DNA from: Ardenticatenaceae bacterium
Lineage (GTDB): Bacteria > Chloroflexota > Anaerolineae > Promineifilales > Promineifilaceae
Assembly: GCA_020634415.1 (NCBI GenBank)
Contig: JACKBT010000054.1
Location: 1-29,835, forward strand
Reading direction: 5' to 3'
DNA: 29,835 nucleotides
The notes beneath the pieces were generated by a model, which saw nothing but the letters and a program-made list of their open reading frames with translations, was not told the origin of the DNA and did no database searches. The position numbers were made by a program, and so were the translations under genes. Of the stretch, positions 8,126 to 29,557 are shown in pieces (positions within the stretch are counted from its first letter, which is position 1; every line of letters starts with the position of its first letter).

Positions 8126-8713
8126 CTATGCATGGTGGGGTGCTAGATTGCGCTGCTTGCGGCGACGGTATACTCTGATTATCCAAATAGTCAGAGTGAG
8201 AGCAACAAAGACTGCTAAGATGGGGATGAGGATGGAGAGGATGGAGATGAAGAAGGCGATGATGTCTTCGACGAGGCTGACGAGCCAGTTGCCTGTGCCG
8301 GCGGTGGTGGCGGTGACAAACGGCCGTATCGTCCCTTTTGCCGCATGAACTGACCCCGCTAACAAGATGCCTGCGACCAGAGCCACAATAGGATGAATGT
8401 CTGTTACCACATTGGCATTGGCGGCAAACAGGATAGCACCGGCGGCAGGGCGTACAATGGTTTGGATGACATCGTTGATGGTGTCTACGGCGGGAATTTT
8501 GTCTACCGTCATTTCAATGAATAGTAAAATGCCCAAAATGCCAATCGCCCACCAACTGCCAATCAGGTTGTATGGTTCTGCTAGCTGTAAATAGGGGCTG
8601 TTGAGGGGAAACCGAGCGGCCAGGGCGACGATGAGGAGGGGAATGTAGGCATTTAGCCCGGCGCTGGTGGCGAGACCAAAGGCTGCACCTAAACCACCCA
8701 ATGCTTCAAGCAT
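8126..8713 (-). CDS. DUF4126 family membrane protein
   Basis: The 195-aa protein begins with a Gly/Ala-rich helix containing GLATSAGLNAYIPLL, continues with DKIPAVDTINDVIQT and RPAAGAILFA, and ends with two long hydrophobic helices and a basic tail (YRRRKQR). This order matches the DUF4126 family of small multi-spanning membrane proteins with no assigned function. Start ATG 8713 has AAAGGAG about 9 bases upstream. One ACGGCCGT copy (about 8321) encodes the TIRPFV part. It could be transcribed with the DUF2085 gene upstream, but a hairpin repeat lies between them. Confidence 0.78.
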   Translation of the reverse strand: MLEALGGLGAAFGLATSAGLNAYIPLLIVALAARFPLNSPYLQLAEPYNLIGSWWAIGILGILLFIEMTVDKIPAVDTINDVIQTIVRPAAGAILFAANANVVTDIHPIVALVAGILLAGSVHAAKGTIRPFVTATTAGTGNWLVSLVEDIIAFFISILSILIPILAVFVALTLTIWIIRVYRRRKQRNLAPHHA

Positions 8714-8730
8714 GAAAATTGCTCCTTTGG

Positions 8731-8798
8731 GGATTGGAGATTACAGACTGGAGACTATGGTGTTCTGCTCAATCTCCAATCTCTAGTCGCTAGTCTCC
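8731..8798. repeat. Intergenic hairpin repeat built of GGAGATTGGAGACT-like units
   Basis: GATTGGAGAT at 8732-8741 pairs with ATCTCCAATC at 8772-8781, and GGAGACTA near 8750-8757 pairs with TAGTCTCC at 8791-8798. Related hairpins lie at 15383-15443 and 20392-20443. It sits between two minus-strand genes. Confidence 0.7.
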
Positions 8799-8802
8799 AC
8801 CC

Positions 8803-9648
8803 TTATAAACCCGGAAATCCGGTCATCGTTCCGGTTAGGCTAAAACGTAAATAGCTAATGGCACTGAGTTCGGTGATGGCGAGGATGAGGCCAATGAGGA
8901 GGGGGAGGCTGGCTTGCTGCCAGTTTTGGGCCAAACTCTCGCGGCGGGTGAGGATGAGTACCATGATGCTGTTGAGCGTGGTGACGATTGCCAGGAGACC
9001 GACCACGCTGATGATGGCTAATACGTAGAGGAGGTGGGGTTGGTTGCTGAGGGTGAGCAGAACGGCCGTTCCGCCTACCACTACCAATCCACCCAATTCT
9101 CGCAGAGTGGACAGCGACGGCCGAAAATCTTGCTCACGCCACAGGGTTTGAGCTAAGGTTGGTAAGAGGATCGCGCCCATAGCCAGCCCTGTGCCTGTGC
9201 CGGTGAGTAGACGCAGCCAGTTGCGTGGCTGGTAGAGGTGGGGGGCGTTGGGGAAGAAGTGGCTGTAGGAGTTGAGGCCATCGAGGCCCATGATGCCGAT
9301 GAAGCCAAGCAGAATGAGTAAGATGGGCAAAGGCGGGAGGAATGTGTGGCGGCTGCGCCCAGCCAGCCAAAGGGTGAGGAGGCTGAGGGCTGCACCCAGG
9401 TACATGCCGGTGCAGCGGGCGCAGAGGGGGAGTTGACGGCCGTTTATCATGAACGTCCGCTCGGTGAGGCGGTGGCAAACGGCATAACCCATCCAATCTG
9501 CGCCAGCCAGAATATGATCATGGGTGAGGTGGTTGGGGTCGGTGATGGTGTAGAAAGCCATAATGAAGATGGCTCCTAAGATGATGAGCAAGAGGAGGGG
9601 GCGGGGAAGCGGCCGTTTATTGTCACGCTTTATCTGACTTGTCGTCAT
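8803..9648 (-). CDS. DUF2085 family membrane protein
   Basis: About 281 aa. After a short basic N-terminus comes a membrane helix (LLLLIILGAIFIMAF), then the diagnostic segment YAVCHRLTERTF and ARCTGMYLG, with the conserved Cys-His and CxxC-like cysteines of DUF2085. Several more hydrophobic helices follow. The family is uncharacterised; the cysteines may bind metal or form a disulfide (inference). I chose ATG 9648 rather than the longer in-frame start at 9708, because the extra residues overlap the upstream gene and are not hydrophobic or conserved-looking. No clear ribosome-binding site precedes 9648, but its first 26 bases overlap the end of the repeat-protein gene, which suggests translational coupling. 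Confidence 0.8.
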   Translation of the reverse strand: MTTSQIKRDNKRPLPRPLLLLIILGAIFIMAFYTITDPNHLTHDHILAGADWMGYAVCHRLTERTFMINGRQLPLCARCTGMYLGAALSLLTLWLAGRSRHTFLPPLPILLILLGFIGIMGLDGLNSYSHFFPNAPHLYQPRNWLRLLTGTGTGLAMGAILLPTLAQTLWREQDFRPSLSTLRELGGLVVVGGTAVLLTLSNQPHLLYVLAIISVVGLLAIVTTLNSIMVLILTRRESLAQNWQQASLPLLIGLILAITELSAISYLRFSLTGTMTGFPGL

Positions 9649-10033
9649 TTGGGGGTGATTCTTGTGATGGTTCTTGAAAAAAGAAAAAGAAAGCGGCTGC
9701 TCCCTCAACGGGATGATGCATATTTTCCAGACGACCTACATAGGCATCACGGCCATGAGGAATGTGACGATACAGTTTGCCATCTTGCTCAATCCGTGCC
9801 ATGTAGATGTCTGGGCCAGGTTTGTGGGCGTAAATGTGTCCGTCGTCATCCACGCGCCCCACATACTCATCGGGGCCAACGCGGTGGGCGTAGATTTTGT
9901 TTTCCTGGTAGTTTACATGGCCGATGTATTTGTCGGGGCCGAGGCGTTCGCTGTAGATACGGCCGTTATCGGGATCAATGCGGCCTAAATATTTATCACG
10001 TTGGTGGGGTAAATGTTGGTAGATATGGATCAT
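9623..10033 (-). CDS. Small protein made of about five 20-residue YxGR(V/I)D repeats
   Basis: The 136-aa protein is mostly tandem repeats of about 20 residues: DKYLGRIDPDNGRIYSERLG, DKYIGHVNYQENKIYAHRVG, DEYVGRVDDDGHIYAHKPG, DIYMARIEQDGKLYRHIP and DAYVGRLE. Each has a D-x-Y-hydrophobic-G-R strand, an acidic turn with Gly, and an IYAH strand. This suggests a beta-hairpin solenoid or a small flower-like fold. The tail is AAAFFFFFQEP and then acidic and polar. There is no signal peptide, so it is probably cytoplasmic. I know of no function. It overlaps the DUF2085 gene by 26 bases. One ACGGCCGT copy encodes part of the first repeat (NGRIY). Confidence 0.75.
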   Translation of the reverse strand: MIHIYQHLPHQRDKYLGRIDPDNGRIYSERLGPDKYIGHVNYQENKIYAHRVGPDEYVGRVDDDGHIYAHKPGPDIYMARIEQDGKLYRHIPHGRDAYVGRLENMHHPVEGAAAFFFFFQEPSQESPPNDDKSDKA

Positions 10034-10099
10034 ATGCCGGATTATAGCAGAAAAGCAGTCAGGCGTAATTGGCTTCTGCCCGATGATCCCTGATTACCG

Positions 10100-10128
10100 T
10101 TGACCGATCCCCTTGCCAATGTTACGAT
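10100..10128 (+). promoter_or_regulatory. Promoter of rnpB
   Basis: TTGACC at 10100-10105 and TACGAT at 10123-10128 are 17 bases apart. The predicted start, 7 bases after the -10, is 10135, exactly the first base of the P1 helix of the RNase P RNA. Confidence 0.75.
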
Positions 10129-10134
10129 CAAACT

Positions 10135-10517
10135 GTCAAGTCGGCTGGGTGATCGCGGCTCCACCTGGAGCTGAGGAAAGTCCGCACTCTACAGGGCACG
10201 GTACCGGCTAACAGCCGGGCGGGGCAACCCGACGGCAAGTGCAACAGAGAAGAGATTGCCCGTCTTTGACGAGTGAGGGTGAAACGGTAGTGTAAGAGAC
10301 TACCGGCGATGGCAGCGATGTCATCGGCCAGGCAAACCCTACCGGGAGCAAGACCAAGCAGGGTGGATGGTTAAACTGCAATTTGCAGTTTAGCCTACGG
10401 AGCGGCCCGTTCCGTCTGACATCCGGGTAGGTCGCACGAGCATATCAGTAATGATGTGCCTAGATAGATGATCACCACCCTTCGGGGAACAGAATGCGGC
10501 TTATAGGCTGGCTTGAC
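10135..10517 (+). ncRNA. rnpB: RNase P RNA, bacterial type A
   Basis: The conserved 5' core GAGGAAAGTCCGCACTC, the ACAGGGCACGGTACC region, and the 3' core with ACAGAATGCGGCTTATAGGC are all present in order. The ends GTCAAGTCGGCT (10135-10146) and GGCTGGCTTGAC (10506-10517) pair over 12 bp, with G-U wobbles, as helix P1. The length of about 383 nt fits type A RNAs. This is the catalytic RNA that matures tRNA 5' ends and probably also the tmRNA encoded at 15475-15881. No terminator follows; an 8-bp tandem repeat begins 5 bases after P1. Confidence 0.97.
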
Positions 10518-10522
10518 ATAAC

Positions 10523-10557
10523 TACGTAATTACGTAATTACGTAATTACGTAATTAC
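10523..10557. repeat. Tandem TACGTAAT repeat, 4.4 copies
   Basis: Four perfect 8-bp copies plus TAC fill the space between rnpB and the phosphatase start codon. The array reads TACGTAATTACGTA, itself palindromic, so it can form hairpins on either strand. It replaces any ribosome-binding site for the next gene. Confidence 0.95.
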
Positions 10558-10560
10558 TTT

Positions 10561-11025
10561 ATGATTACTGTTTTGTTTGTTTGTTTGGGCAATATCTGCC
10601 GCTCACCGATGGCGGAAGCTGTTTTTCAGCAGTTGGTGCAAGCGGCAGGTTTGGGGGAGCAAATTCGGGTTGATTCGGCCGGTACGGGTGATTGGCATGT
10701 GGGGGAAAAGGCGCATTATGGTACGCGCCAAGTTTTGGCAAAGCATGATATTCCTTATAACGGCCGTGCGCGGCAAGTGACGAGTGCTGACATGAGATCG
10801 GCTAATACATATGTGGTGGCTATGGACAGCCGTAATTTGGCGGATTTGCAGCGTCACTATGGTGCACATTCTAATCTGCATCGTTTGCTTGATTTTGCTG
10901 TGAAAACGCACGAGCGAGATGTGCCAGACCCTTATTACACGGGTGGATTTGATGAAGTGTATGAGCTGGTGCTGGATGGCTGCCAGGGTTTGCTGAAGAT
11001 GATTCAGGAAAGGGAGCAGTTGTAG
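10561..11025 (+). CDS. Low-molecular-weight protein tyrosine phosphatase
   Basis: The 154-aa length is typical of the family. The catalytic P-loop is VCLGNICRSP with nucleophile Cys8 and Arg14. The general acid is Asp123 in DPYY. SAGT near residue 40 and AMDSRN near 86 are further family marks. These enzymes hydrolyse phosphotyrosine, or arsenate in related proteins, through a cysteinyl-phosphate intermediate. The ATG lies 3 bases after a TACGTAAT array and has no Shine-Dalgarno sequence, so translation may be leaderless or weak; no better in-frame start exists because the P-loop begins at residue 7. It may be read through from rnpB. One ACGGCCGT lies in the coding part (YNGRARQ). Confidence 0.93.
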   Translation: MITVLFVCLGNICRSPMAEAVFQQLVQAAGLGEQIRVDSAGTGDWHVGEKAHYGTRQVLAKHDIPYNGRARQVTSADMRSANTYVVAMDSRNLADLQRHYGAHSNLHRLLDFAVKTHERDVPDPYYTGGFDEVYELVLDGCQGLLKMIQEREQL

Positions 11026-11121
11026 AAGATGGCTGTGCAGGTGTTGTTAGAGGTTCTATAGGGTTCTTCAGGATTTCAGGGGGTGATGCCCATTTGTTTG
11101 GGCGTGGCTTTATGCCCGCCC

Positions 11122-11151
11122 TCTGGGACGACCACAAGGGTACGCCCCTAC
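11122..11151. repeat. Imperfect inverted repeat, GGGNCGACCACAAGGGT type
   Basis: GGGACGACCACAAGGGTACG followed by CCCCTACA forms a short imperfect hairpin (GGG-CG with CG-CCC arms around CCACAAGGGT). This pattern resembles a short intergenic repeat that I recall from many environmental bacterial genomes; the relation is from memory. It lies in the 238-base gap between the phosphatase and flavoprotein genes, where I see no gene. Confidence 0.4.
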
Positions 11152-11263
11152 ATTTAGGCTAACCTGACGAATTCTCCAAGAGCCGAAATTAGTTGGGTAA
11201 TCAGTAAGTGGCTGCCTGGTGGGTGTGTTGGTTACTGGTGCTGTTTGGATTTGGAGAGAGTGT

Positions 11264-12433
11264 ATGCAACATGAGGTAATTGTGGTTGGTGCTGGCCCGG
11301 CCGGGTCTATGACGGCGATGAGTTTAGCCCAACAGGGTCATGATGTGCTGCTGCTGGATCGGCAGGCGTTCCCACGAGATAAGACGTGTGGGGATGCTGT
11401 GCCGGCGGGGGCTGTGGAATTGATGTATGAGATGGGGATGAAGGATAAGGTGGAAACGGCCGTTGCTCGCGGTGAGTTTTATCCAGCTTATGGTATGCAG
11501 TTGGTATCACCTCAAGGTCATGTGTTGGATGCGGCATTTGCCAAAGGTCGGCACATGGGGCTGGATTCTTATGTGGCTCCTCGTCTCTATCTGGACGCTG
11601 TGTTGCAGCAACATGCGCTTGACAGCGGGGCCAAATTCCAGACGTGGACGGTGAAAGAGCCGATTGTGGAAAACGGCCGTGTCACTGGTGTGCGTGCTCA
11701 AACCAACGGCAGTATCAAAGAAATCAAAGCCCAAATGGTGGTTGGCGCTGATGGTGTCACCTCCGTCATCACTCGGGCGCTGCGCCCTAAAGAGGGTATG
11801 CACCAGGACGGTCATCGGGCTGTCGCTTTGCGTGCCTACATTGAAGACCTGGAAGAGATTCCGAACACGGTTGAGTTCTTTCTTTATAAAGAGATATTGC
11901 CTGGATATGCCTGGATATTTCCCATTGGGGAGGGACGGGCTAACATTGGTCTGGGTTTGCGTTTAGACCATCTGCGCCAACATAATCTGCGCTTGAAAAC
12001 GATGCTGCAGCATTTTTTGGAGATGCCGGCTGTCAAAAAGCGGTTGAAGCAGGGAGGTAAGCTGCATGATATAGCCACCTGGCAGCTTAATTTTGGTTCA
12101 CAAAAGCATATGCAGCACACTTATGATGGGGCTTTGCTGGTTGGTGATGCCGCCGGATTTATTAATCCTTTAACCGGTGGTGGTATTCATAATGCACTTG
12201 TCTCGGCGCGGCTGGCAGCGCAGACGATTCACAATGCTTTGGCAGACAATGATACCTCGCGTGAGCGTTTGCGTGTGTATGAAACACGCTGCCATGAAGA
12301 GATGTGGGATAGTATGAAGCGCTCTTATTTTATGCAACGCGCTTTTATGAAATTTCCTTTCCTAATTGATTGGTTGGTGAGATGGGGCAAAGAAAACAGC
12401 CAATTGGCCCAAACTTTTTTGACGAAGTTGTAG
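11264..12433 (+). CDS. Geranylgeranyl-reductase-family FAD-dependent oxidoreductase
   Basis: About 389 aa from ATG 11264. It begins with the Rossmann FAD motif VIVVGAGPAGS and continues with LLLDRQAFPRDKTCGDAV, the conserved PxxK-x-CG-D segment of the geranylgeranyl reductase group. VVGADGVTS lies in the middle, and the second FAD motif LLVGDAAGFINPLTGGGI appears near residue 300. Family members reduce isoprenoid chains of chlorophyll, menaquinone or ether lipids, or act as related flavin hydroxylases, so the substrate here is open. I chose 11264 because GGAGAG sits 8 bases upstream and the Rossmann strand begins at residue 4; an in-frame GTG start at 11219 adds 15 residues without support. 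It converges with the receiver-domain gene, with 4 bases between stops. Confidence 0.88.
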   Translation: MQHEVIVVGAGPAGSMTAMSLAQQGHDVLLLDRQAFPRDKTCGDAVPAGAVELMYEMGMKDKVETAVARGEFYPAYGMQLVSPQGHVLDAAFAKGRHMGLDSYVAPRLYLDAVLQQHALDSGAKFQTWTVKEPIVENGRVTGVRAQTNGSIKEIKAQMVVGADGVTSVITRALRPKEGMHQDGHRAVALRAYIEDLEEIPNTVEFFLYKEILPGYAWIFPIGEGRANIGLGLRLDHLRQHNLRLKTMLQHFLEMPAVKKRLKQGGKLHDIATWQLNFGSQKHMQHTYDGALLVGDAAGFINPLTGGGIHNALVSARLAAQTIHNALADNDTSRERLRVYETRCHEEMWDSMKRSYFMQRAFMKFPFLIDWLVRWGKENSQLAQTFLTKL

Positions 12434-12437
12434 ATGA

Positions 12438-12806
12438 TTAATGCAATAGACAGGAGTTGATTTTGGCGGGAAGCTCGAAGATGGGGGTTTCTTTGGTGAT
12501 GAGGTCGTTGGCTCCGGCAGCCAGGCTGTTTTCCCGGGTTTCTTTGCGGGAATCGGCTGTGTACATGAGGATGCGGGGCATTTCGATCTCGTAACGGGTG
12601 CGAATTTCGCGGCAGACTTCAATGCCATCCATGCCGGGCATCATGACATCGAGCAGGACGACGTCGGGCATTTCTTCTTGGATGGATTTGAGTGCTTCAC
12701 GGCCGTTTATGGCACCACGCACAGTATAACCTGCATTTTCCAATATAATGCGGCATAATTCTACGAGGGAGGCTTCATCATCAACGACGAGTACTTTGTT
12801 TGCCAT
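12438..12806 (-). CDS. Single-domain response regulator (receiver only)
   Basis: The 122-aa protein is a complete CheY-like receiver: acidic pair Asp9-Asp10 in VVDDE, phosphoacceptor Asp53 in LLDVMMPGMDG, Thr83 in MYTAD, and Lys105 in ITKE. There is no output domain, so it acts through protein contacts or phosphotransfer. No histidine kinase gene is in the window, so it is an orphan here. The last residues (KINSCLLH) are short but cover the final helix. Start ATG 12806 has no strong Shine-Dalgarno. Confidence 0.93.
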   Translation of the reverse strand: MANKVLVVDDEASLVELCRIILENAGYTVRGAINGREALKSIQEEMPDVVLLDVMMPGMDGIEVCREIRTRYEIEMPRILMYTADSRKETRENSLAAGANDLITKETPIFELPAKINSCLLH

Positions 12807-12944
12807 AGCTGTTTATTGTATTGAAGGGTTACAACATCGGTAAATAGGCATAAATGCCCATAACTGTGTATGTTATACGTCTTTCTAATCGAGTTGTCCA
12901 GAGAAAACGGCCGATTCTAAGGATATAAAAGGAGCGTGAATTCC

Positions 12945-13328
12945 ATGAAGCTGATAGTTCGCTTGGTGATCAATGCCCTGGCATTATGGATTGCCATTGA
13001 GTTAATTCCTGGTTTTAACTTTGAAGGCAGCAATGTATCCCTGCTGATAATCGCTTTGATATTTGGGTTGGTTAATGCGATGGTGCGTCCCCTCATCTTG
13101 CTTTTGACATGCCCCTTAGTGCTGCTGACACTGGGGTTGTTTATTTTAGTCGTGAACACGATTATGCTGTCGCTTACAGTGTGGCTGTCTGGGCCGGAGG
13201 TGTTTGGTTTGGGCCTGACATCGCAGGGCTTCTGGACGACTTTTCTGGCGGCTGTCGTCATTAGTATTGTGAGCGGTGTGATGAGTGCGTTGGTGAAGGA
13301 TGATGATGAGAAGCGGGATAGGCGGTAG
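12945..13328 (+). CDS. Phage-holin-like / mycobacterial 4TM family membrane protein (PF04020-type)
   Basis: About 127 aa with four hydrophobic helices: LIVRLVINALALWIAIEL, LLIIALIFGLVNAMVRP, a segment around LTLGLFILVVNTIML, and TTFLAAVVISIVSGVMSAL. The C-terminus is charged (KDDDEKRDRR). The LVNA-x-VRP motif after helix 2 is characteristic of this small conserved family of unknown role; the holin label is only historical. I chose ATG 12945 because GGAG at 12931-12934 is correctly spaced from it and only one base from the alternative GTG at 12936. An A-rich terminator follows the stop. No partner gene is linked. Confidence 0.88.
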   Translation: MKLIVRLVINALALWIAIELIPGFNFEGSNVSLLIIALIFGLVNAMVRPLILLLTCPLVLLTLGLFILVVNTIMLSLTVWLSGPEVFGLGLTSQGFWTTFLAAVVISIVSGVMSALVKDDDEKRDRR

Positions 13329-13338
13329 GCAAAAAAAA

Positions 13339-13367
13339 GCCCGCATAAAGCGGGTCAATATTTTTTC
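13339..13367. terminator. Rho-independent terminator between convergent genes
   Basis: GCCCGC (13339-13344), loop ATAAA, and GCGGGT (13350-13355) form a stem preceded by eight A and followed by TCAATATTTTTT. It lies between the 4TM gene and the convergent cold-shock gene and could serve both. Confidence 0.8.
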
Positions 13368-13383
13368 TGGGGCAACTGTGTAA

Positions 13384-13620
13384 CTAATATTTAGTTACTG
13401 AAGAGCCAAAGCTATGTCTGGCTGTTACATTTTGGGCCTGTGGGCCGCGTCCATGATCCACCAATTCAAATTCGACGCGATCGCCTTCATAGAGGTTGCG
13501 ATATCCGTCGCCGTCAATTGCTGAATAATGGACAAATACTTCTTGCCCACCATCATCTGGATTGATGAAGCCGTAGCCTTTTAACCGACTAAACCATTTG
13601 ACAATACCACTAACTTTCAC
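13384..13620 (-). CDS. Cold-shock domain protein (CspA family)
   Basis: The 78-aa protein is a single cold-shock domain. RNP1 is KGYGFI near residues 14-19 and RNP2 is VFVHYSAI near 28-35, with the usual GIVKWFS start and a [17 protein letters not shown] strand. Members bind single-stranded RNA or DNA and melt mRNA structure in the cytoplasm. The C-terminal [11 protein letters not shown] extension is slightly longer than E. coli CspA. The start is GTG 13620 with GGAGG 6 bases upstream. The leader is long and structured, typical of self-regulated csp mRNAs: a candidate promoter lies at 13737-13765 and a hairpin at 13649-13678. Confidence 0.95.
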
Positions 13621-13648
13621 TTTATACCTCCACTACACTTTGCTAGAT

Positions 13649-13678
13649 AGCACGATTTGGCGCGCCCGAAATCGTGCT
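13649..13678 (-). promoter_or_regulatory. Perfect 10-bp hairpin in the cold-shock leader
   Basis: AGCACGATTT and AAATCGTGCT are perfect complements around a 10-base loop that is itself nearly palindromic (GGCGCGCC). It ends 29 bases before the GTG start and about 18 bases before the GGAGG. No T-run follows, so it is unlikely to be a terminator. A temperature-sensitive or autoregulatory RNA element is possible (inference). Confidence 0.6.
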
Positions 13679-13685
13679 TCTCTAC

Positions 13686-13719
13686 TACCAATACAACTTA
13701 AAAAAGATACCAATACAAC
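13686..13719. repeat. Direct repeat of 12 bp in the cold-shock leader
   Basis: TACCAATACAAC occurs at 13686-13697 and again at 13708-13719, 22 bases apart start to start, about two helical turns. As leader RNA it reads GUUGUAUUGGUA twice. It could be a protein-binding site on DNA or RNA. Confidence 0.75.
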
Positions 13720-13736
13720 GGTTAATGATTAGGATA

Positions 13737-13765
13737 AAGTTATCATGGGGAGGGGGGTAAGTCAA
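13737..13765 (-). promoter_or_regulatory. Candidate promoter of the cold-shock gene
   Basis: On the minus strand TTGACT (13765-13760) and TAACTT (13742-13737) are 17 bases apart. The implied leader is about 110 nt. The -35 is strong and the -10 weak. The rest of the 258-base gap up to 13878 shows nothing else. Confidence 0.5.
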
Positions 13766-13878
13766 TTGGGCGCTGGATGATTTCACAGCAGTTTTACACC
13801 GTAAATGCAGCGTGAATGAAGGGGTTAATGCCTCTATATGGTGGTTTATGGGGTGAGGGATGCACGGCCGTTTTCCGG

Positions 13879-14595
13879 CTAAAAACGGGGTTTGAAGAGG
13901 CCTTGTAACAGGACGTGACGGTAGCCTTTATCTCTAAAACCGAGGCGTTGGGCTAGCTGTAAAGAGGCTTCGTTGTTGTCGGCGACGGCATAGAGGGGAA
14001 GACGGCCGTTTGCCAATACATGATTTACCGCTGCGGCTACTACACTGCGGCCAAAGCCCTGCCGCCGGTGACGCGGATTGGTAGTTACCGTTATTTCTGC
14101 GAAAAAATTGTTTTGCCAATTGATGCCTGCCGATGCCGCAATCTCATCCTGACTGCGAATGATAAAGCGAGGGTATTGATTGTTGGAAGCACTTTCGGTG
14201 ACAAGCACATTGATGATTGGCTCAAACTGGTCTTCATCTAAGACGAGTATGTTGATGTTTTCTTCGGCTTGTACGTCGAGTAGGGCTGTTAGAAGAGGGG
14301 CATCGGTGGGGAGCATGTTGAGGATAACGGCCGTTTCTGGCGCAATCGCCTTATATAATAACTCCAGACTGCCCGTCATGTCATCCGGTGGTAGGCGTAG
14401 TGTTACAAACGGCCGAAACAAATCAATCCCCGTGCGCGACAAAGCCACATACCCCGTCGCCAAAGCAGCATCAATGGGGTAAGTCATAATCTGGGTGCGC
14501 TCCTCCGGGTAATGGAAGGCAAAATAATCAGCGATGCCATCGAGCGGACTGCGCTCGTTGAGGAGGTGGCGAATGGCCTGGCGTGCGGAACTCAT
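13879..14595 (-). CDS. GNAT-family N-acetyltransferase
   Basis: About 238 aa. The C-terminal half holds the GNAT fold: acetyl-CoA-binding motif A is ITVTTNPRHRRQGFGRSVV, with the (R/Q)-x-x-G-x-G loop, followed by AVADNNEASLQLAQRLGF, the usual motif B with Asn and the LGF segment. The N-terminal half is unlike a second GNAT domain and may be a family-specific domain. The substrate cannot be read. I chose ATG 14595; an in-frame GTG at 14631 would add 12 residues and overlap the end of the upstream nucleoside phosphorylase gene. Both have weak ribosome-binding sites. Two ACGGCCGT copies and one ACGGCCGA fall inside. The tight spacing to the upstream gene suggests an operon. Confidence 0.85.
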   Translation of the reverse strand: MSSARQAIRHLLNERSPLDGIADYFAFHYPEERTQIMTYPIDAALATGYVALSRTGIDLFRPFVTLRLPPDDMTGSLELLYKAIAPETAVILNMLPTDAPLLTALLDVQAEENINILVLDEDQFEPIINVLVTESASNNQYPRFIIRSQDEIAASAGINWQNNFFAEITVTTNPRHRRQGFGRSVVAAAVNHVLANGRLPLYAVADNNEASLQLAQRLGFRDKGYRHVLLQGLFKPRF

Positions 14596-14620
14596 CGGAA
14601 CCTGGGGAATGGAGTGGAAC

Positions 14621-15373: not shown

Positions 15374-15382
15374 AAACTGTCC

Positions 15383-15443
15383 TGATGGGGTTGGAGGTTG
15401 GAAATTGGAGATTTTAGTCTCCAGCAGCCAATCTCCAGTCTCC
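15383..15443. repeat. Imperfect intergenic hairpin of TTGGAGA-type units
   Basis: GGTTGGAGGTTGGAAATTGG and the following GAGA units face AGTCTCC, CAATCTCC and AGTCTCCC units on the right. The arms pair imperfectly. It belongs to the same family as 8731-8798 and 20392-20443 and lies between the nucleoside phosphorylase start and the tmRNA terminator. Confidence 0.6.
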
Positions 15444-15472: not shown

Positions 15473-15474
15473 AG

Positions 15475-22477: not shown

Positions 22478-22511
22478 GTAAATATTCTAATCTTTGCCTG
22501 CCTAATTCATC

Positions 22512-23150: not shown

Positions 23151-24184
23151 CAAACTTAGAAAAAGTACGGATTGGTATAGCAGGTTTGACGCATGGGCAT
23201 GTGGGTTGGATTTTGTCACGGCCGTTTCACGCCACATACGAAGTTGTAGGGATTGCCGAGGAGGATACGGCCGTTTACGGCCGTTACGCCCAACGATTTG
23301 ATCTCAGTAAAATCCCCATCTACACCACTTTAGAGGAAATGCTGGACACGGCCCAACCCGAAGCGGTTGTCGCCTTTGGTTCGATTTACGACCATCTGGC
23401 GGTGGTGCAAACCTGTGCGCCGCGTGGCGTGCATGTGATGGTAGAAAAGCCGCTGGCGGTGAACATGAGCCATGCGCAGGCGATGGCTGATTTGGCACGG
23501 CAGCACCATATCCATTTGTTGACCAATTATGAGACGACCTGGTATGCCAGCAACCATGCCGCTTATCAGTTGGTGCATGGGGAGCGGTTGATTGGCGAGG
23601 TGTGGAAGGTGGTGATTTATGATGGGCATAAGGGGCCGCAGGAGATTGGGGTGCAGCCGGAGTTTTTGGCCTGGTTGACGGATCCTGTGCTAAACGGCGG
23701 CGGCGCGGTGATTGATTTTGGCTGTTATGGCGCGAATTTGATGACGTGGCTGATGCGGGGGGAGAAGCCGGTGGCGGTAACGGCCGTTACCCAGCAAATC
23801 AAACCCCACCTCTATCCCCACGTAGATGATGAAGCCACCATTGTCGTCACCTACCCCAAGGCGCAAGCCATTATTCAAGGCTCGTGGAATTGGCCGATTG
23901 CACGCAAGGATATGGAAGTTTATGGGCAGACGGGGCAGCTACACGCGCTCAACGCGCTGGATTTGCGCATTCAGACGCAGGCGGATAAGGAAGCACGGTT
24001 AGAGAAGTTGGAGCCATTGGCTGAGCCGGTGAATGATCCGTTTGTTTATTTTTCGGCCGTTATCCGCCACCAAACCCCCCTTCACGACAACGACCTTTCC
24101 GCTCTCAGCAACAACCTCACCGTTGTCCAAATTTTGGATGCGGCGCGGGAGTCGGCGCGGAGTGGGCAGGTAGTTTATTTGTAA
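23147..24184 (+). CDS. Gfo/Idh/MocA family NAD(P)-dependent oxidoreductase
   Basis: The 345-aa protein starts with RIGIAGLTHGHVGWIL, a Rossmann fold whose loop is G-x-x-H-G-H, a variant of GxGxxG found in this family. VVAFGSIYDHLAVVQTCAPRGVHVMVEKPLAV holds the EKP signature, and GGGAVIDFGCYGANLMTWLM marks the C-terminal substrate domain. It probably oxidises or reduces a sugar or polyol; the substrate is unknown. It overlaps the methyltransferase by 4 bases. Four exact ACGGCCGT copies fall inside, three of them within 67 bases (23218-23284). It ends at a hairpin shared with the convergent purine gene. Confidence 0.92.
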   Translation: MTNLEKVRIGIAGLTHGHVGWILSRPFHATYEVVGIAEEDTAVYGRYAQRFDLSKIPIYTTLEEMLDTAQPEAVVAFGSIYDHLAVVQTCAPRGVHVMVEKPLAVNMSHAQAMADLARQHHIHLLTNYETTWYASNHAAYQLVHGERLIGEVWKVVIYDGHKGPQEIGVQPEFLAWLTDPVLNGGGAVIDFGCYGANLMTWLMRGEKPVAVTAVTQQIKPHLYPHVDDEATIVVTYPKAQAIIQGSWNWPIARKDMEVYGQTGQLHALNALDLRIQTQADKEARLEKLEPLAEPVNDPFVYFSAVIRHQTPLHDNDLSALSNNLTVVQILDAARESARSGQVVYL

Positions 24185-24210
24185 TGACGCATTACGCTGT
24201 TACGTCATTA
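24182..24210. terminator. Hairpin spanning both stops of convergent genes
   Basis: TAATGACG (24182-24189) and CGTCATTA (24203-24210) are exact complements. The left arm contains the oxidoreductase TAA, and the right arm contains the TAA of the AICAR transformylase gene. A T-run is lacking, so its efficiency as a terminator is uncertain. It resembles the CGTAATGA repeat units. Confidence 0.5.
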
Positions 24211-25383
24211 ATGATGGAATAGCCGTGTTTCCGTCAAAGCCATGACCATACCATACTCATCACAAGCCGCAATAACGAGATCATCGCGGATGGAGCCGCC
24301 GGGTTGAGCCACATAGCTGACACCGCTTTGTTGGGCGCGGTCTATGCTGTCGCGGAAGGGGAAGAAGGCATCGGAGCCGAGGCTGACACCGGAGAGTTGG
24401 TTGAGCCAGTCCCGTTTTTCGGCGCGGGTGAGGCGCACGGGCGTTTCAGTGAAGTTTTCCAGCCAGATGGCTTCTTCGGCCGGGGTCAGTTCATCTAGCA
24501 GGAATTGGTCTATGGCGTTGTCGCGGTTGGGACGGCCGATTTTGGCTACAAACGGCAGCGCTAACACACGCGGATGCTGTCGCAGCCACCAAGTATCGGC
24601 CTTTGTGCCTGCCAGCCGGGTGCAATGGATGCGCGACTGCTGCCCCGCACCCATGCCAATGACCTGCCCGTCTTTGGTGTAACAGACGGAGTTGGACTGG
24701 GTGTATTTGAGGGCGATGAGGGCCACGATGAGGTCGCGTTGGGCAGCGGGGGAGAGTTCTTTGTGGGTGGTGACGATGTTGGTGAGATCGGTGGGGGCGG
24801 GAACGGCCGTATTCCTGTGCTGGGCCATCATCACCCCAAACAACTGCCGCGTTTCCATCTCATCTGGCTCGTAGCTGGGGTCAATTTGCACAATGCGGTA
24901 GCCGCCGCCTTTTTTGCCGCGCAAAATCTCTAAGGCTGCGGGTTCATAACCAGGTGCAATCACGCCGTCAGACACTTCGCGGCGCAGAAGTTCGGCGGTG
25001 GGTACATCTACCACATCGCTGAGGGCGGCCCAATCGCCAAACGAGGAGATGCGGTCGGCCCCACGAGCGCGGGCGTAGGCCGAGGCCAGCGGCGATAGTT
25101 CCACATTACCCACGAAGTAGGCTTGTTTGAGCGTGTCGTCCAGAGGTTCGGCGACTGCCGCGCCTGCCGGGCTGACGTGTTTGAAGGAGGCAGCGGCAGG
25201 GAGGTTGAGGGCTTGTTTCAGTTCGCGGACGAGCTGCCAGGCGTTGAGGGCATCGAGGAGGTTGATGTAACCGGGACGGCCGTTTAGCACGGCAAAGGGC
25301 AGCGATCCTTCGTTCATAAAGACCCGCGCCGGGGTTTGGTGCGGGTTCATACCATAGCGGAGTTGGAGTTCGGTTGGGGTCAT
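24208..25383 (-). CDS. Stand-alone AICAR transformylase (phosphoribosylaminoimidazolecarboxamide formyltransferase)
   Basis: The 391-aa protein corresponds to the transformylase half of Pur[13 protein letters not shown] at the start, [12 protein letters not shown] with catalytic Lys68-His69, [54 protein letters not shown] and the closing [20 protein letters not shown]. It transfers a formyl group from 10-formyl-THF to AICAR in purine synthesis. At about 390 residues it is longer than the PurH C-terminal domain and resembles the separate stand-alone transformylase family, so it is a complete enzyme and not a fragment. The preceding gene encodes IMP cyclohydrolase. A 65-base gap with repeats separates them. 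Confidence 0.92.
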
Positions 25384-25403
25384 GTATTTGGGGTAGTAAC
25401 TGG

Positions 25404-25460
25404 GTAACTAAGTAATTGTGTAATTGGTTTAACTACCCAATTACCTAATTACTCAATTAC
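25404..25460. repeat. 24-bp imperfect inverted repeat of 8-bp GTAATTGN units between the two purine genes
   Basis: Arm 25404-25427 (GTAACTAA, GTAATTGT, GTAATTGG) pairs with arm 25437-25460, whose complement reads GTAATTGA, GTAATTAG, GTAATTGG. The loop is 9 bases. The right arm covers the stop codon region of the cyclohydrolase gene. The units are related to those at 5134-5163 and 10523-10557. Confidence 0.85.
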
Positions 25461-26030
25461 TTCTTGTAAATAGGCCGTAATCGCCGTGTCATAGTCGCGG
25501 GTGTGAGCGAAGGCTTTGACGGCGAGGTGACGGCGTTGATTTTCGTCGAGGCTGTTGGTTTGTAGGGCGGTGAGGGTGGGGGTGTAATCGGCCGTTTCGC
25601 ACACTACAATCACCCGTGCAAAGTTTTTGGCGGCAGCACGTAACAACGTCACGCCGCCAATGTCAATCTGCTCAATGGCTTCGGTTAGGGTTACGCCGGG
25701 CTGGGCGATGGTTTCGTTGAAGGGGTAGAGGTTGCAGATGACCATATCTATCATCTGAATGTTTTGGGCGGACAGATCGGCCTCGTCGCTGGGGATGTGG
25801 CGGGCGAGGATGCCGCCGTGAATGGCGGGGTGCAGTGTTTTGACGCGGCCGCCGAGCATCTCGGGTGCGCCGGTTATGTCGGCGACGTCTTGTACAGGCA
25901 AGCCTGCTTCGCGCAGCAGGCGGGCGGTGCCGCCGCTGGCGATGAGTTCCCAATCTAAAGTTACCAATGCCTGGGCGAATTCGACCAGGCCAGTTTTATC
26001 GTACACGGAGAGGATGGCTCGTTTTGTCAT
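25449..26030 (-). CDS. Stand-alone IMP cyclohydrolase (PurH N-terminal, MGS-like domain)
   Basis: About 193 aa, matching only the first domain of bifunctional Pur[69 protein letters not shown] and [18 protein letters not shown]. It closes FAICAR to IMP, the last step of purine synthesis. The stop TAA is genuine and followed by repeats, and the partner activity is in the next gene with its own start. I chose ATG 26030, because PurH homologues start at this point; an in-frame ATG at 26126 would add 32 residues with no family support. Neither start has a Shine-Dalgarno. The C-terminal linker that joins domains in PurH ends in YLQEVIE. Confidence 0.9.
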
Positions 26031-26312
26031 GATTGTGAAATGTAGCACAAGGGGGAACGGCCGTCTAATCCTGATTTCCTTATTTCGCCAACTCCTTAAA
26101 CTGCCCTGTCCTCGGGAGAGATTCATGTGAAATTTACTAAAAATCGTGGCACTTTTGGGGGAAATAAGATAGGCAAATTATTTTTTTTGTTTAGAATTAG
26201 GGGGTATGTTTTGTTATATAGGGTGTGTCTAGGTGTTGTGACTAATGGAACTGTTGCAGCAATTTTAGACATCATCTGCTTTACATCTATCATTACCTAA
26301 AGGCGTAATCTA

Positions 26313-26858
26313 ATGCATACTTATACCTGTGATCCGGCGTTAGAAATCAGTGGGCAGACATTACAAGCCTACATAGATAATGTTCAAGCTGACATTATCG
26401 AACCTATCTTTCATAAGCACGGGATGTCAGTTCCCGACCCCGAAAAGTGGTATCCTCTGCAACCTGTGTTAGATGTATTGAAAGAGATTCATGACAACCC
26501 AGATGCGACGACAAATTTAGTGGCTATTGGCGTGAAAATAGCTGAGTATGGGGTTGAACCAGAGGATATTATTGCGGCTCCGTTGAATGTAGTTTTTGAA
26601 CATTGGGAAGAGCATATGTATTCAAGTGTGCGCAATGGGGATGCTGGCCGCATTATTACCGAAAAGGTGAATGACAAGTTTTATAAAATTACGCAACAGA
26701 ATATCTTTCCCGATGATTTGTGTTACGGATTGGCTTATGGCTTTGCCCGCAGCCGTTTGCCGTTAGGGGTTAATTTTAGGGTTTGGTATGAGGATTATGA
26801 TAACCGTATTGATAATGGTGGCGGGGATAAGACGGTTATTTGTGTGCAATGGGAGTAG
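26313..26858 (+). CDS. Unrecognised 181-aa cytoplasmic protein
   Basis: I do not recognise this family with confidence. The N-terminal half reads ISGQTLQAYIDNVQADIIEPIFHKHG, then PDPEKWYPLQPVLDVLKEI, TNLVAIGVKIAEYGVEPED and a helical segment ending HWEEHMYSSVRNGDAGRI. The layout vaguely recalls Myxococcus-type DUF2378 or heme-NO-binding-like helical domains that measure guanidine- or V4R-like ligands, but this is only resemblance. The C-terminal half is beta-rich (ITQQNIFPDDLCYGLAYGFA, NFRVWYEDYD, KTVICVQWE). There is no signal peptide or membrane segment. The gene is more AT-rich than its neighbours and carries no ACGGCCGT copy. AAAGG lies 11 bases before the ATG, and a terminator follows. 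Recent acquisition is possible. Confidence 0.75.
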   Translation: MHTYTCDPALEISGQTLQAYIDNVQADIIEPIFHKHGMSVPDPEKWYPLQPVLDVLKEIHDNPDATTNLVAIGVKIAEYGVEPEDIIAAPLNVVFEHWEEHMYSSVRNGDAGRIITEKVNDKFYKITQQNIFPDDLCYGLAYGFARSRLPLGVNFRVWYEDYDNRIDNGGGDKTVICVQWE

Positions 26859-26886
26859 GGGTTTGGGGTGAAACGTTTTAGAATGT

Positions 26887-26918
26887 AAAAGGATGGGTTT
26901 TACCCATCCTTTTTTGTT
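26887..26918. terminator. Bidirectional rho-independent terminator
   Basis: AAAAGGATGGGT (26887-26898), loop TTT, and ACCCATCCTTTT (26902-26913) form a 12-bp stem followed by TTG and a further T-run. It separates the 181-aa gene from the convergent secreted hydrolase. Confidence 0.93.
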
Positions 26919-26920
26919 TT

Positions 26921-28144
26921 TTATGGTCTGTCGGTGGCCGGTGGGGAGATGATGATGGGCAGGTAGTTTTGTTGGGGGGTGGTGAGGGTGAGTAAACGGC
27001 CGTATGCCGCTAACACCTCATCTACCGTAAACGCACAGTGGCCGTAACGCTCCGCCGCGAAATGATCGTGTAAGGCGGGGCCGTGAATTTTGGCCGCGTA
27101 TAGGGGACTGTGCCAGTAGGGAACGACGGGATCGGCCGTGGTGTGTAGGGTGACGATGGGGCGGCTGAGGGAACCTGTGGTGATGTAGTGGGCCGCAATC
27201 TCATCGAGCGCAGCCTGATCGCCGCTGACGCGAATTACGCCCGCATTGAGAGCCGCATCATCATCGGAACCTGTGTAGATGCGGTGGGTGTTGCTATAGG
27301 GCTGGCCGCCGAGCTTGAGGGCGGCATCGTTGGTGGCGAAGACGTTGTACCAGAGCAGCCGCTCGATGGTGGCGGTGTTGGTGATGGCCGGGGCCGGTGC
27401 GTACAGCGCGTTGGCGGTGGTAAGGAGTTGGGTGGTGGTATAGGCGTTGGCAGGGTCGCTAATGGCGGGGAGAATGGTGCTGTTGTAGTGGTTGTCCCAG
27501 TTGTCTATGAGTGATTGGGGAATGTTGGTGGGATCGCCAGGCATGAGGCCCGGAAAGTAGTAATCGAACAAGACACGAAAGTCGCCAAAGTAGTTGACTT
27601 GTGCGCCAAAATCGCCATAGGGGCCGCACATGGCTAACCCGCCATCGAAGCGGTCGGGGTAATGTTCGAGGGCGAGGGCGGTGATGATGCCGCCTTCGGA
27701 AACGCCAGCCAGGTAGGTGTGGTTGGGGGGGCCGTACTGGGCGGCAAAGATGTCGAGCAGGTCTATGATGTCGGTGAGGCCGGGCTGGATGGCGAGGCCG
27801 TTGGTGCTGTAGCTGGTGGTGGCGAAGGCGTAACCGAGCAGGTTGACGAGATCAATGATGGAGTTGCCGCCGATGCTGATCTGGTCTTCGGGGATGCCGA
27901 TGGGGGCGGTGGGGGAGACGTAGCCGTGGGCGTAGACGAGGAGATCGCCGTTCCAGTTGTTGGGGACGCAGAGGCGGTAGATGGCGCCGCTGGTTTGGCT
28001 GCCGTCGGGATCGCAGGTGGCGGCAGGGCGAGGGGGGAGGGGTGAGGGGCGAGGGGGGAGGGGGGCAACGGCCGTTGCCGGCTGCACTATCAATAGTATG
28101 AGGAACAGCAGGCAAGCACAGAGGAAGAGTGTTTTACGTATCAT
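26921..28144 (-). CDS. Secreted alpha/beta hydrolase
   Basis: About 407 aa. Residues 1-27 are a signal peptide (RKTLFLCACLLFLILLIV core, cleavage near AVA-P). A Pro-rich stretch (PLPPRPSPLPPRP) follows. The mature part has DLLVYAHGYVSP as an early strand with the oxyanion-hole region, nucleophile Ser149 in LAGVSEGGIITALALE, and late acid and base candidates in HTTADPVVPYWHS and RYGHCAFT. The pattern fits secreted peptidase- or esterase-like alpha/beta hydrolases; the substrate is unknown. Three cysteines could form disulfides outside the cell. I chose ATG 28144; an upstream GTG at 28159 adds 5 residues. No Shine-Dalgarno is visible. The C-terminal YLPIIISPPATDRP could be a short anchor-like tail. 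It diverges from the lipoprotein gene by only 45 bases. Confidence 0.86.
   Translation of the reverse strand: MIRKTLFLCACLLFLILLIVQPATAVAPLPPRPSPLPPRPAATCDPDGSQTSGAIYRLCVPNNWNGDLLVYAHGYVSPTAPIGIPEDQISIGGNSIIDLVNLLGYAFATTSYSTNGLAIQPGLTDIIDLLDIFAAQYGPPNHTYLAGVSEGGIITALALEHYPDRFDGGLAMCGPYGDFGAQVNYFGDFRVLFDYYFPGLMPGDPTNIPQSLIDNWDNHYNSTILPAISDPANAYTTTQLLTTANALYAPAPAITNTATIERLLWYNVFATNDAALKLGGQPYSNTHRIYTGSDDDAALNAGVIRVSGDQAALDEIAAHYITTGSLSRPIVTLHTTADPVVPYWHSPLYAAKIHGPALHDHFAAERYGHCAFTVDEVLAAYGRLLTLTTPQQNYLPIIISPPATDRP
28026..28066 (-). repeat. G-rich tandem tract encoding Pro-rich linker after a signal peptide
   Basis: The plus strand is made of GAGGGG/GCGAGGGGGGAGGGG-type units. Read on the coding strand it gives PLPPRPSPLPPRP. 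It resembles the tract at 4887-4921, and an ACGGCCGT follows directly at about 28068. Confidence 0.65.
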
Positions 28145-28189
28145 CAGGCTATTGTACACTTGTGGTTCATTATTTACAGGGAGAATTGC

Positions 28190-29557
28190 ATGATGAAACG
28201 TAATGGTATGATCAAACTTGTTTGTTTAGGGATGCTGCTGGTGTGGCTGGCGGCTTGTGGTAGTGGGGGGGAAACGGCCGTTCTGGAACCGACTGCTATT
28301 GCCAGTACCCATGAGGAAACGGCGGCTGTGCCGCCCACGCCGACGTTGGTGGCCCCGGCCGCTGCCGATGAGGCTGCACCAACGGTGGCGGTGGCAACGG
28401 AAACGGCCGTTCCCCCCACGCCTGTGCCCCCAACCCCCACTTTTGTACCGACGGTTACGCCGCCACCGGCACCTGTGGATGAGGCGCAGATTCGCCAGGA
28501 ATTGCAAACGCTGGCTTTTCCCGCCGGTATTTATGAGGGTGTGTATGCTTTTCCGCTGCCGCAAGACCCCCATGTGTGGCTGGTTCATTCGGTGGGATTT
28601 CGGCCGTATGAGACGGTTTCTAATCATGCGGCGGCGCTGTACCGTTATGTGGATGGGCAGTGGCAGGAGTTGGCGCGGGTGGAGTTGGTGACACCGGATA
28701 TTTTGTATGAAGAGGCGATTGCGGCGGTGGATTTGGGAGACGGCCGTTATTGGTTTGAGGAGTACAGCTATGTGGGCGCACATGGCAGTTGTTATGAGCT
28801 GCTGCGTTATGATTTTGCGGCTCTGGATGTGGTGATAAGTAACTGCCATTCCAGTAATGCCAGTGGTGGCATTGGCGATTTGAATCAAGACGGCCGTCCT
28901 GATTTGGTGCTGAACCAGACGATTGATTACGTCTTCTGTTTTGCCTGCGGCGTGCGTTATCCTTATTATGATGTATTGGAGTTTGTGGATGGGGAGTGGC
29001 AGCCGGTAACAGTCCGGCTATTGCCCGACGATGCCCAGGTTGACATGCGCAACTTTAATAATGAAGCGGTACGTTTGTACAATCTGGGTCTGTTTAAGCA
29101 AGCCGAAGAGACGATCAACTTGATTGTGGGTGATGTGCCCCTTGTGCTGTGGAATCAGGCCATTATTCGTTTGCACGCGGAGGATGCACGTTTTCAGGCG
29201 CAAAATGGGCCGCTGCCGGTGTTGGGCCAGATTTTTTATGGAGATTATGCCGCGGCTTTGGACATGCTGCGGGTCTATCCGCCGGTGGAACTGTTTACGC
29301 TGCAAAATAATCCGCTGTTGGTGGGCACGGTGGCTGAGGGGTGGGAGGATACATTTGCCGAATGGGTGACGAGTACGACGGTGAGTGTGGTGGAGGGGCA
29401 GCCGGATATGGCTTCGGCTCATTTTCTTTATGGCTGGGGTTTGTATCTGTTGGATGCGACGGATAGCAGGGTGATGGGGGAGTTGGAAACGGCCGTTTCC
29501 CTTGACCCCACTGAGCCGCTGTATCAGGATAGTTTGGCCTATTTGCGTGGAGAATAG
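28190..29557 (+). CDS. Secreted lipoprotein with Pro/Thr-rich linker and FG-GAP/TPR-like regions
   Basis: About 455 aa from ATG 28190. The lipobox is LVWLAAC with Cys23, so the mature protein should be lipid-anchored outside the cell membrane. Residues about 30-105 are a Pro/Thr/Ala linker with PPTPVPPTPTF repeats. The folded part has VWLVHSVGF, then SNASGGIGDLNQDGRPDLVLNQ, a Ca-binding-like FG-GAP loop like those in the giant propeller gene at 1-4933. The C-terminal third is helical and TPR-like (NEAVRLYNLGLFKQAEETI, LYGWGLYLLDATD). Function unknown; ligand sensing or surface binding is plausible. GGGAG sits 7 bases before the ATG. Five exact palindromes lie inside; those in the linker and C-terminus read ETAV. 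Confidence 0.85.
   Translation: MMKRNGMIKLVCLGMLLVWLAACGSGGETAVLEPTAIASTHEETAAVPPTPTLVAPAAADEAAPTVAVATETAVPPTPVPPTPTFVPTVTPPPAPVDEAQIRQELQTLAFPAGIYEGVYAFPLPQDPHVWLVHSVGFRPYETVSNHAAALYRYVDGQWQELARVELVTPDILYEEAIAAVDLGDGRYWFEEYSYVGAHGSCYELLRYDFAALDVVISNCHSSNASGGIGDLNQDGRPDLVLNQTIDYVFCFACGVRYPYYDVLEFVDGEWQPVTVRLLPDDAQVDMRNFNNEAVRLYNLGLFKQAEETINLIVGDVPLVLWNQAIIRLHAEDARFQAQNGPLPVLGQIFYGDYAAALDMLRVYPPVELFTLQNNPLLVGTVAEGWEDTFAEWVTSTTVSVVEGQPDMASAHFLYGWGLYLLDATDSRVMGELETAVSLDPTEPLYQDSLAYLRGE

Follow-up and report, generated by a model that had tools for sequence, protein, structure and literature searches.

The window analysed here, positions 1 to 29,835 of contig JACKBT010000054.1 from an Ardenticatenaceae bacterium (the whole stretch, 29,835 nt), contains many copies of an 8-bp palindrome, ACGGCCGT. 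Throughout the chromosomes of a lineage of uncultured Chloroflexota (Anaerolineae-like) this word recurs as an iterated palindrome, comparable to the highly iterated palindrome 1 (HIP1) of cyanobacteria. Each palindrome is at a purine-to-pyrimidine switch, in that the 40–60 bp lying 5' of it on each strand have drifted towards purines, mainly G. The switch is tied neither to gene direction nor to replication direction, and it depends on the word being the iterated one of its genome, not on its exact letters. The purine/pyrimidine flank adds a new property to iterated palindromes, which are themselves known elements.

The composition switch in the window

An exact scan of the window located 52 copies of ACGGCCGT, where 0.53 would be expected from composition. 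The core of the word, CGGCCG, was present 84 times, with 32 of these cores outside ACGGCCGT. The composition switch at the palindrome is real and far beyond chance. It was measured as a keto step, (G+T)-(A+C) left versus right of the palindrome, and as a GC step, G-C taken likewise. The preliminary description of this DNA had proposed averaging the skew around the copies for comparison with random positions, and the resulting profile was not flat: at the 84 cores the keto step stood 8.1, 9.3 and 8.1 standard deviations (SD) above random positions over 5–25, 5–50 and 5–100 bp, was weak at 100–200 bp (2.5 SD) and had gone at 200–400 bp (0.6 SD). All 18 places that it had listed as switches fell on a CGGCCG core (16 of them in a full ACGGCCGT) with a positive keto step of 0.32 to 0.88 over 5–55 bp. 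The 65 cores outside that list gave a mean of +0.18 (standard error, SE, 0.036; one of the 66 unlisted cores was left out as it lay within 25 bp of a listed place), and 24 sites to the left of the range described gave +0.19. For the 52 full copies the keto step exceeded +0.2 at 38 and fell below -0.2 at one, compared with 18.7% and 18.9% of random positions, and its sign was positive at 47, negative at three and zero at two. Over all 84 cores the corresponding counts were 49 and 6, so that the assertion of no clear reversed case was not upheld: reversal was seen at one full copy (6516) and at 5 of the 32 cores outside ACGGCCGT. The copies and the most instructive sites are as follows.

183, 1340, 2079, 2226, 2600, 3488, 3714, 4154, 4179, 6321, 6516, 6962, 7207; no strand; first bases of ACGGCCGT copies, exact scan
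7333, 8320, 9062, 9436, 9959, 10760, 11456, 11673, 12699, 13864, 14002, 14327, 14946; no strand; first bases of ACGGCCGT copies, exact scan
16338, 17068, 17445, 17559, 17705, 17784, 18059, 18105, 18192, 19045, 20532, 22900, 23218; no strand; first bases of ACGGCCGT copies, exact scan
23267, 23277, 23780, 24803, 25276, 26057, 26996, 28068, 28274, 28403, 28740, 28890, 29489; no strand; first bases of ACGGCCGT copies, exact scan
17385..17505; no strand; clearest single example, G/T-rich then C/A-rich, round ACGGCCGT at 17445-17452; keto step 0.88 and GC step 0.72 over 5–55 bp each side
23720..23845; no strand; second example, ACGGCCGT at 23780-23787 within the plus-strand open reading frame (ORF) 23147-24184; keto step 0.84, GC step 0.62
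26940..27060; no strand; third example, ACGGCCGT at 26996-27003 within the minus-strand ORF 26921-28159; keto step 0.84, GC step 0.68
6516..6523; no strand; the sole full ACGGCCGT with a clearly reversed step; keto step -0.36
1..29835; no strand; 32 CGGCCG cores that are not ACGGCCGT, for example 22753 (ACGGCCGA), 24054 (TCGGCCGT) and 16165 (ACGGCCGA), by scan; 5/32 reversed beyond -0.2

We note that the window also contains three copies each of the 10-bp palindromes CGTAATTACG and ATTACGTAAT, and that the 12-bp forms ACGTAATTACGT and AATTACGTAATT occur.

The switch had been described as G/T-rich to the left and C/A-rich to the right. The excess of G over C before the palindrome was borne out, but at silent sites A goes with G, so the pattern is one of purine against pyrimidine and mostly of G against C. 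In the window the purine fraction at 4-fold silent sites was 0.70 at 5–20 bp and 0.51 at 150–400 bp. The T-A step over all bases was approximately zero at 5–25 bp and small and positive (0.083) at 25–50 bp, which explains the earlier G/T impression.

The 23 sites in plus-strand genes had a GC step of 0.302 over 5–40 bp, the 25 in minus-strand genes one of 0.368 and the four outside genes one of 0.236. An equal polarity in both gene orientations had been offered as proof that transcription does not set the switch. That conclusion stands, but the argument for it does not: a pattern that is G/T-rich on its left and C/A-rich on its right does not change when reverse-complemented, which by itself gives genes of either orientation the same polarity and leaves the 'one-way' character uninformative. 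By the same symmetry no chromosome strand is singled out, and the sign flip across origin and terminus that had been suggested as a test of replication cannot occur. Direction would show only as an unequal size of the two flanks relative to background. Eighteen pieces of 10 kb in which strand skew is strong were turned so as to read G-rich; in them the left flank deviated by +0.131 and the right by -0.098 (294 sites), and the window gave +0.193 and -0.139 (52 sites). As both flanks deviate, replication direction is unsupported. The earlier interpretation rests on a symmetry error and is supported in part, since a palindrome-seeded process acting outward on both strands, a repair-linked one included, may be at work.

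Genome-wide iteration and conservation of the palindrome

The citrate synthase encoded in the window (19097-20383) was 74% identical to that of locus L002, which belongs to a named Anaerolineaceae metagenome genome, G001; the closest of 36 relatives searched was G043, at 82% in citrate synthase. Among the best 80 of 588 loci from the citrate synthase scan, only L002 showed a comparable density of ACGGCCGT (39 copies in 21 kb), and the next-densest of these 80, L080, had five copies versus 0.85 expected. G001 carried 11,907 copies in 8.1 Mb compared with 403 of the reversed word, and more than 1,500 copies were present in 30 of 52 family genomes, with a maximum of 15,176. On a contig of G006 (C1, which contains a run of approximately 100 N), 737 of 819 copies lay inside genes predicted by an untrained, greedy longest-ORF script and 82 outside, and a fixed consensus did not extend further than some 9 bp from the centre. 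Within these predicted genes one codon phase was preferred (401/737). Spacing on this contig averaged 512 bp with a coefficient of variation of 1.11, gaps below 64 bp were rarer than exponential (63 versus about 96 expected), and of the 20-kb stretches counted in this host the fullest had 58 copies. We also observed that 351 of the 818 gaps between palindromes on contig C1 were multiples of 3, which would fit the preferred codon phase.

ACGGCCGT is strongly conserved, by selection or by an active process. In 26 ordered genome comparisons at 79–93% identity, palindromes were kept at 0.75–0.94 versus 0.19–0.66 for composition-matched 8-mers; 18 further comparisons (77–89% identity), run without the matched control, gave 0.63–0.99. 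The word thus has the attributes of the HIP class: a large genome-wide octamer excess, a genic and intergenic spread unlike that of a long transposon-like repeat, and maintenance by selection or an active process.

Shape of the switch and its dependence on the iterated word

All 18 host loci holding ACGGCCGT showed a positive step at 5–25 bp (0.13–0.41), and at 25–75 bp it was above zero in 15 of the 18; four further loci in the survey had no copy of the word. The GC step reached 0.241 (28 SE) over the 819 sites in 420 kb of G006, and in 338 kb of G001 (439 sites) the GC skew passed from +0.32 to -0.29 at 5–20 bp and had decayed by about 75 bp. At silent sites in G006 the share of G in G+C fell smoothly from 79% at 7–10 bp to 53–60% at 43–60 bp; in the window and in genomes G008 and G044 a tail of the switch reached 60–100 bp. 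At silent sites near the palindrome A rose together with G, with purines on the left and pyrimidines on the right in a symmetric manner, and G+C content was roughly unchanged. The step was largest at 4-fold silent sites: read in gene sense, G-C there was +0.40 before the palindrome and -0.28 after it, a drop seen in each of the three codon phases. The 82 G006 palindromes that lie outside predicted genes switched as well (+0.152/-0.154). The flank words GAGG, GGGG and GGGA were raised approximately twofold, and the best 7-mer 4.5-fold (28 copies).

Family genomes poor in ACGGCCGT iterate other palindromes, namely TCGGCCGA in G008 and G027, GCGGCCGC in G044 and TGCCGGCA in G022; the word swap covers these four genomes, with G015, G016, G023 and G033–G040 left out of the word assignment. 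The step at the genome's own word was 0.237 for TCGGCCGA in G008 (197 sites), 0.221 for GCGGCCGC in G044 (140), 0.171 for TGCCGGCA in G022 (61) and 0.129 for TCGGCCGA in G027 (25). G001 gave 0.216 at 729 copies of ACGGCCGT, and TCGGCCGA, GCGGCCGC and TGCCGGCA, which are rare there (11, 17 and 21 copies), gave -0.049, -0.087 and -0.050. As the step is present at the own word of each relative and flat or slightly negative where that word is rare, the signature goes with iterated status. Within this one family the outer letters of the iterated palindrome vary (A/T, T/A, G/C) and in G022 the core does too, as seen in loci L108, L121, L113, L214–L230 and L232.

Near-miss words in G006, counted only when more than 60 bp from a full site, behaved differently from the full word: end-letter variants gave 0.04–0.08 versus 0.24, and one-letter variants gave weak or noisy steps at most (-0.08 to 0.14). 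A general property of palindromes was also considered and rejected. In G001, 12 words were run and the 10 others gave nothing comparable, the largest positive value being that of GGCGCC (keto step 0.079, SE 0.035). In G006, six-mer palindromes with at least 15 usable sites, N runs aside, gave no value above 2.8 SE (TAATTA) besides CGGCCG, and GGCGCGCC, the only other octamer palindrome there with at least 25 copies, had a step of 0.023.

Timing and substitution pattern

In three-genome comparisons the step was 0.220 (SE 0.011, n=450, drawn from more than one focal genome and so not 450 independent sites) at palindromes common to all three genomes. At palindromes present only in the focal genome it was 0.056 (SE 0.043, n=23), with -0.014 and 0.017 at the orthologous empty positions. 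Where the palindrome had been lost in the sister and kept by the outgroup, the flanks of the sister still gave 0.190 (SE 0.039, n=36). Palindromes in focal and sister genomes and absent from the outgroup (n=87, gains and losses mixed) gave 0.203 when measured in the focal genome, and the outgroup itself gave 0.106. The gained and lost classes (23 and 36) are small, and only sites aligned in both partners were kept. Little or no switch at new sites and its retention at recently lost ones indicate a slow consequence of the site; new palindromes seem to arise in ordinary DNA and then slowly to gain the flank signature.

At silent sites 5–20 bp from old palindromes, pyrimidine-to-purine changes numbered 48 versus 30.7 expected (1.56-fold, p=0.005), purine-to-pyrimidine changes 75 versus 108.6 (0.69-fold, p=0.0008) and transitions 155 versus 175.3 (0.88-fold). 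At 20–40 bp the ratios were 1.34 for pyrimidine-to-purine (p=0.02) and 0.89 for purine-to-pyrimidine (p=0.27, not significant). These p values are nominal, as two of the five trios share sequence, and parsimony understates changes from rare to common. An earlier run on four other trios went in the same direction over 5–20 bp, with purine-to-pyrimidine changes above the far rate at 20–30 bp (0.166 versus 0.143). Total substitutions per silent site were 0.3015 versus 0.3412 expected at 5–20 bp and 0.3421 versus 0.3448 at 20–40 bp. If mutation were simply added, purine-to-pyrimidine changes would stay at a ratio of 1 while the total went up, and neither was seen. The counts therefore fit a biased fixation of transversions, whether by weak selection, by drive or biased conversion or by strand-polar repair, and not added damage; the strand-biased base damage that had been proposed for the window was not supported.

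The palindrome outside the group

HIP1 was examined in stretches of cyanobacterial plasmids. In 250 kb of plasmid A of A. variabilis the HIP1 step was 0.070 (159 sites), and its core, CGATCG, at 5.2 SE, topped 28 six-mer palindromes. Three further plasmids from cyanobacteria, each taken over its first 50 kb, gave 0.016, -0.004 and -0.025 (66, 27 and 32 sites). For overrepresented palindromes outside the group, nine locus-word pairs all lay within two SE of zero, and CGAGCTCG pooled from three loci gave -0.017 (SE 0.017, 72 sites). Going by these plasmid stretches and loci, the switch does not appear to be general to iterated palindromes.

ACGGCCGT was also dense on some mobile contigs from IMG/VR, so the word is not avoided in such DNA. 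Among the matches listed, L300, L332 and L286 carried 3.0–3.7 copies per kb, which equals or exceeds the density of the 58-copy stretch of G006, with observed/expected (O/E) ratios of 130–153 and flank steps of 0.03–0.10. Genes of partition, anti-repressor and FtsK-like type lie on L300; L286 gave a weak match for replication initiation, and the three proteins scanned on L332 gave one weak match. The IMG/VR set comprised at least 80 loci: 31 with O/E above 15 were pooled (some of them from the same contig), 27 lay below 8 and 22 were unpooled. The 27 loci with O/E below 8 gave a step of -0.028 (SE 0.021, 59 sites).

Possible mechanisms

We propose, tentatively and with a probability of roughly 0.42, that a symmetric, dimeric system for DNA processing targets the palindrome, and that purine tails are weakly favoured. 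Such a system would engage the palindrome and then act outward along both strands, and a purine-rich strand ending 3' at the site would make the next step work better. Purines would be weakly favoured position by position, with 2Nes of about 1 as estimated from the silent purine fractions of 0.69–0.78 near the site. The likeliest step under this proposal would be break or nick processing with strand exchange, because on both sides the purine-rich, G-rich strand would be the 3'-ended one if the site were opened. The 3'-ended strand is where RecA loads and where Chi-like signals are read.

Several observations weigh against such a processing system. Neither an enzyme nor a palindrome-binding protein was identified. 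A search for PF00145 C5-methyltransferases (N4/N6 methyltransferases were not searched) found the family in 11 of the 19 genomes but not in G006, G018, G031 or G022, all of which have an iterated palindrome, or in four others. These are drafts in which gaps are possible; as far as they show, the family is not the common reader. The strengths of left and right flanks were uncorrelated (-0.03 over 1746 sites, far control -0.04), giving no sign that sites are strong or weak as a unit, and no Chi-octamer-like word stood out among 2–7-letter words in the flanks. Rare words leaned positive in places on tiny counts (GCGGCCGC in G028, 0.117, SE 0.038, n=9; TGCCGGCA in G006, 0.114, SE 0.048, n=5), with further small positives for GCGGCCGC in the window (0.157, n=2) and ACGGCCGT in G008 (0.114, SE 0.121, n=2). 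The palindrome-dense IMG/VR loci gave a pooled step of only 0.047 (SE 0.010, 368 sites, 31 loci; single loci reaching 0.10–0.13), although so weak a step is in line with a slow, chromosome-resident process. By our estimate selection would have to reach as many as a million near-neutral positions, a demanding requirement, and parsimony counts cannot separate selection from biased conversion or strand-polar mismatch repair.

Another explanation, which we consider somewhat unlikely, is strand-polar mismatch repair, in which the palindrome marks or receives the nicks at which repair of the newly made strand begins. Excision in the 5' and 3' directions would be unequal over the first 40–60 bp, and polymerase transversion errors (purine–purine versus pyrimidine–pyrimidine mispairs) would survive unequally while the total rate may stay the same. 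Reweighting the strands in this way makes changes in one direction commoner and those in the other rarer while the total does not go up, which is what the counts show. The machinery is available, as MutS-type ATPases (PF00488) were found in 14 of the 15 genomes searched, and the main text of PMC4390886 contains a model for cyanobacterial HIPs based on biased mismatch repair. However, the expected strand asymmetry of transitions was weak and not significant (A>G 1.25, p 0.31; T>C 0.72, p 0.32), HIP1 lacked a step in the first 50 kb of three of the four cyanobacterial plasmids, and the methylated cytosine of the model has no common PF00145 methyltransferase here (other methyltransferase types were not searched).

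An extended binding motif is an unlikely reading. A protein or a DNA-bending activity, for example a topoisomerase or a nucleoid protein, would prefer a purine–pyrimidine context over about 80 bp and would neither cut nor exchange DNA. The enrichment of GG at -8, -7 and of CC at +6, +7 (0.48–0.53 each) and the smooth, symmetric gradient would suit it. No helical period was visible by eye in 3-bp bins to 150 bp in G006, however, the flanks are not coupled, and TGCCGGCA, a palindrome with a different core, has the same gradient. It is decidedly unlikely that the lineage runs a genome-wide recombination or DNA exchange on its own palindrome, whereby DNA would be opened at the site, purine-rich 3' strands exchanged and better tails spread by drive, the signature re-forming round a replaced word. 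Local damage or error-prone synthesis, the idea of the preliminary description, in which DNA left single-stranded at breaks or stalled forks would mutate more on one strand than on the other, is improbable: a pyrimidine-to-purine direction on the would-be 3' overhang and the graded range do fit resection from a central break, but there was no excess of substitutions near old sites at either distance, purine-to-pyrimidine changes were down, transitions were not raised and silent G+C was roughly unchanged.

Hairpin or cruciform stems have almost no probability, for although G-rich left and C-rich right arms could pair, mirrored positions in G006 did not covary (7.84 matches versus 7.89 expected, z -0.6 at shift 0; z -2.5 to 1.2 over 13 shifts) and 73% of its palindromes lacked even one base pair of extension, which rules stems out for that genome. 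That codon or amino-acid context makes the step, as the location of most palindromes in predicted genes in one preferred phase might suggest, is hardly credible and was ruled out by the silent-site, phase and intergenic tests, and the step was absent at other palindromes and at relatives' iterated words where these are rare in G001.

Relation to known systems

To our knowledge, the function of iterated palindromes has been open since HIP1 was described. Work on them reportedly includes a 2018 study of HIP1 selection and spacing by Xu, Lawrence and Durand. HIP1 (GCGATCGC) resembles the present element in being an 8-bp palindrome iterated genome-wide, with a word that varies among relatives; it differs in host and word, as here the phylum is Chloroflexota and the words are ACGGCCGT, TCGGCCGA, GCGGCCGC or TGCCGGCA, and in its flank step, which was weak in one plasmid and lacking in three plasmid stretches; a PF00145 methyltransferase, moreover, was not found in several of the present draft genomes. 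According to the main text of PMC4390886 (2015, by Elhai), cyanobacterial HIPs occur at approximately one site per 1000 nt genome-wide, other words are used in some relatives and flanking letters beyond the octamer were noted in some HIP genomes; the terms 'skew', 'purine', 'asymmetr', 'CGGCCG' and 'Chloroflex' have 0 occurrences in that main text. No report of this switch in this phylum was found among the matches listed in a search of titles and abstracts.

Chi, the FtsK-orienting polar sequences (KOPS) and the SpoIIIE recognition sequences (SRS) share a strand asymmetry, rich in G or in purines, that leads towards a processing site, but are fixed directional words acting over kilobases to megabases, whereas here a smooth bias of 40–60 bp is mirrored about a palindrome with no dominant word. 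The uptake sequences of the uptake signal sequence (USS) and DNA uptake sequence (DUS) type are iterated short words upheld against mutation, possibly by drive, but unlike the present words they are not palindromes, and we know of no mirrored purine/pyrimidine flank for them. Replication-linked GC skew is similar in having G over C on one strand; here the skew switches at each palindrome (every 512 bp on average in G006), with both sides deviating whatever the background.

The flank signature provides a handle on iterated palindromes, as it is strand-directional, has a scale of 40–60 bp, is datable and follows a changed word. It indicates a symmetric action that reaches past the 8 bp of the site, and it favours biased fixation over damage; models of iterated palindromes for this group must account for it. 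Two minor observations concern other words. In L070, an Actinomycetes metagenome-assembled genome, the 17 copies of CGGATCCG within 13 kb are 30 times the number expected and have no clear flank step. A plasmid of Calothrix sp. NIES-4105, over its first 50 kb (L241; AP018291.1, 1-50000), had no excess of HIP1 and carried 14 copies of AGGCGCCT and 11 of TGGCGCCA, 73 and 57 times expectation.

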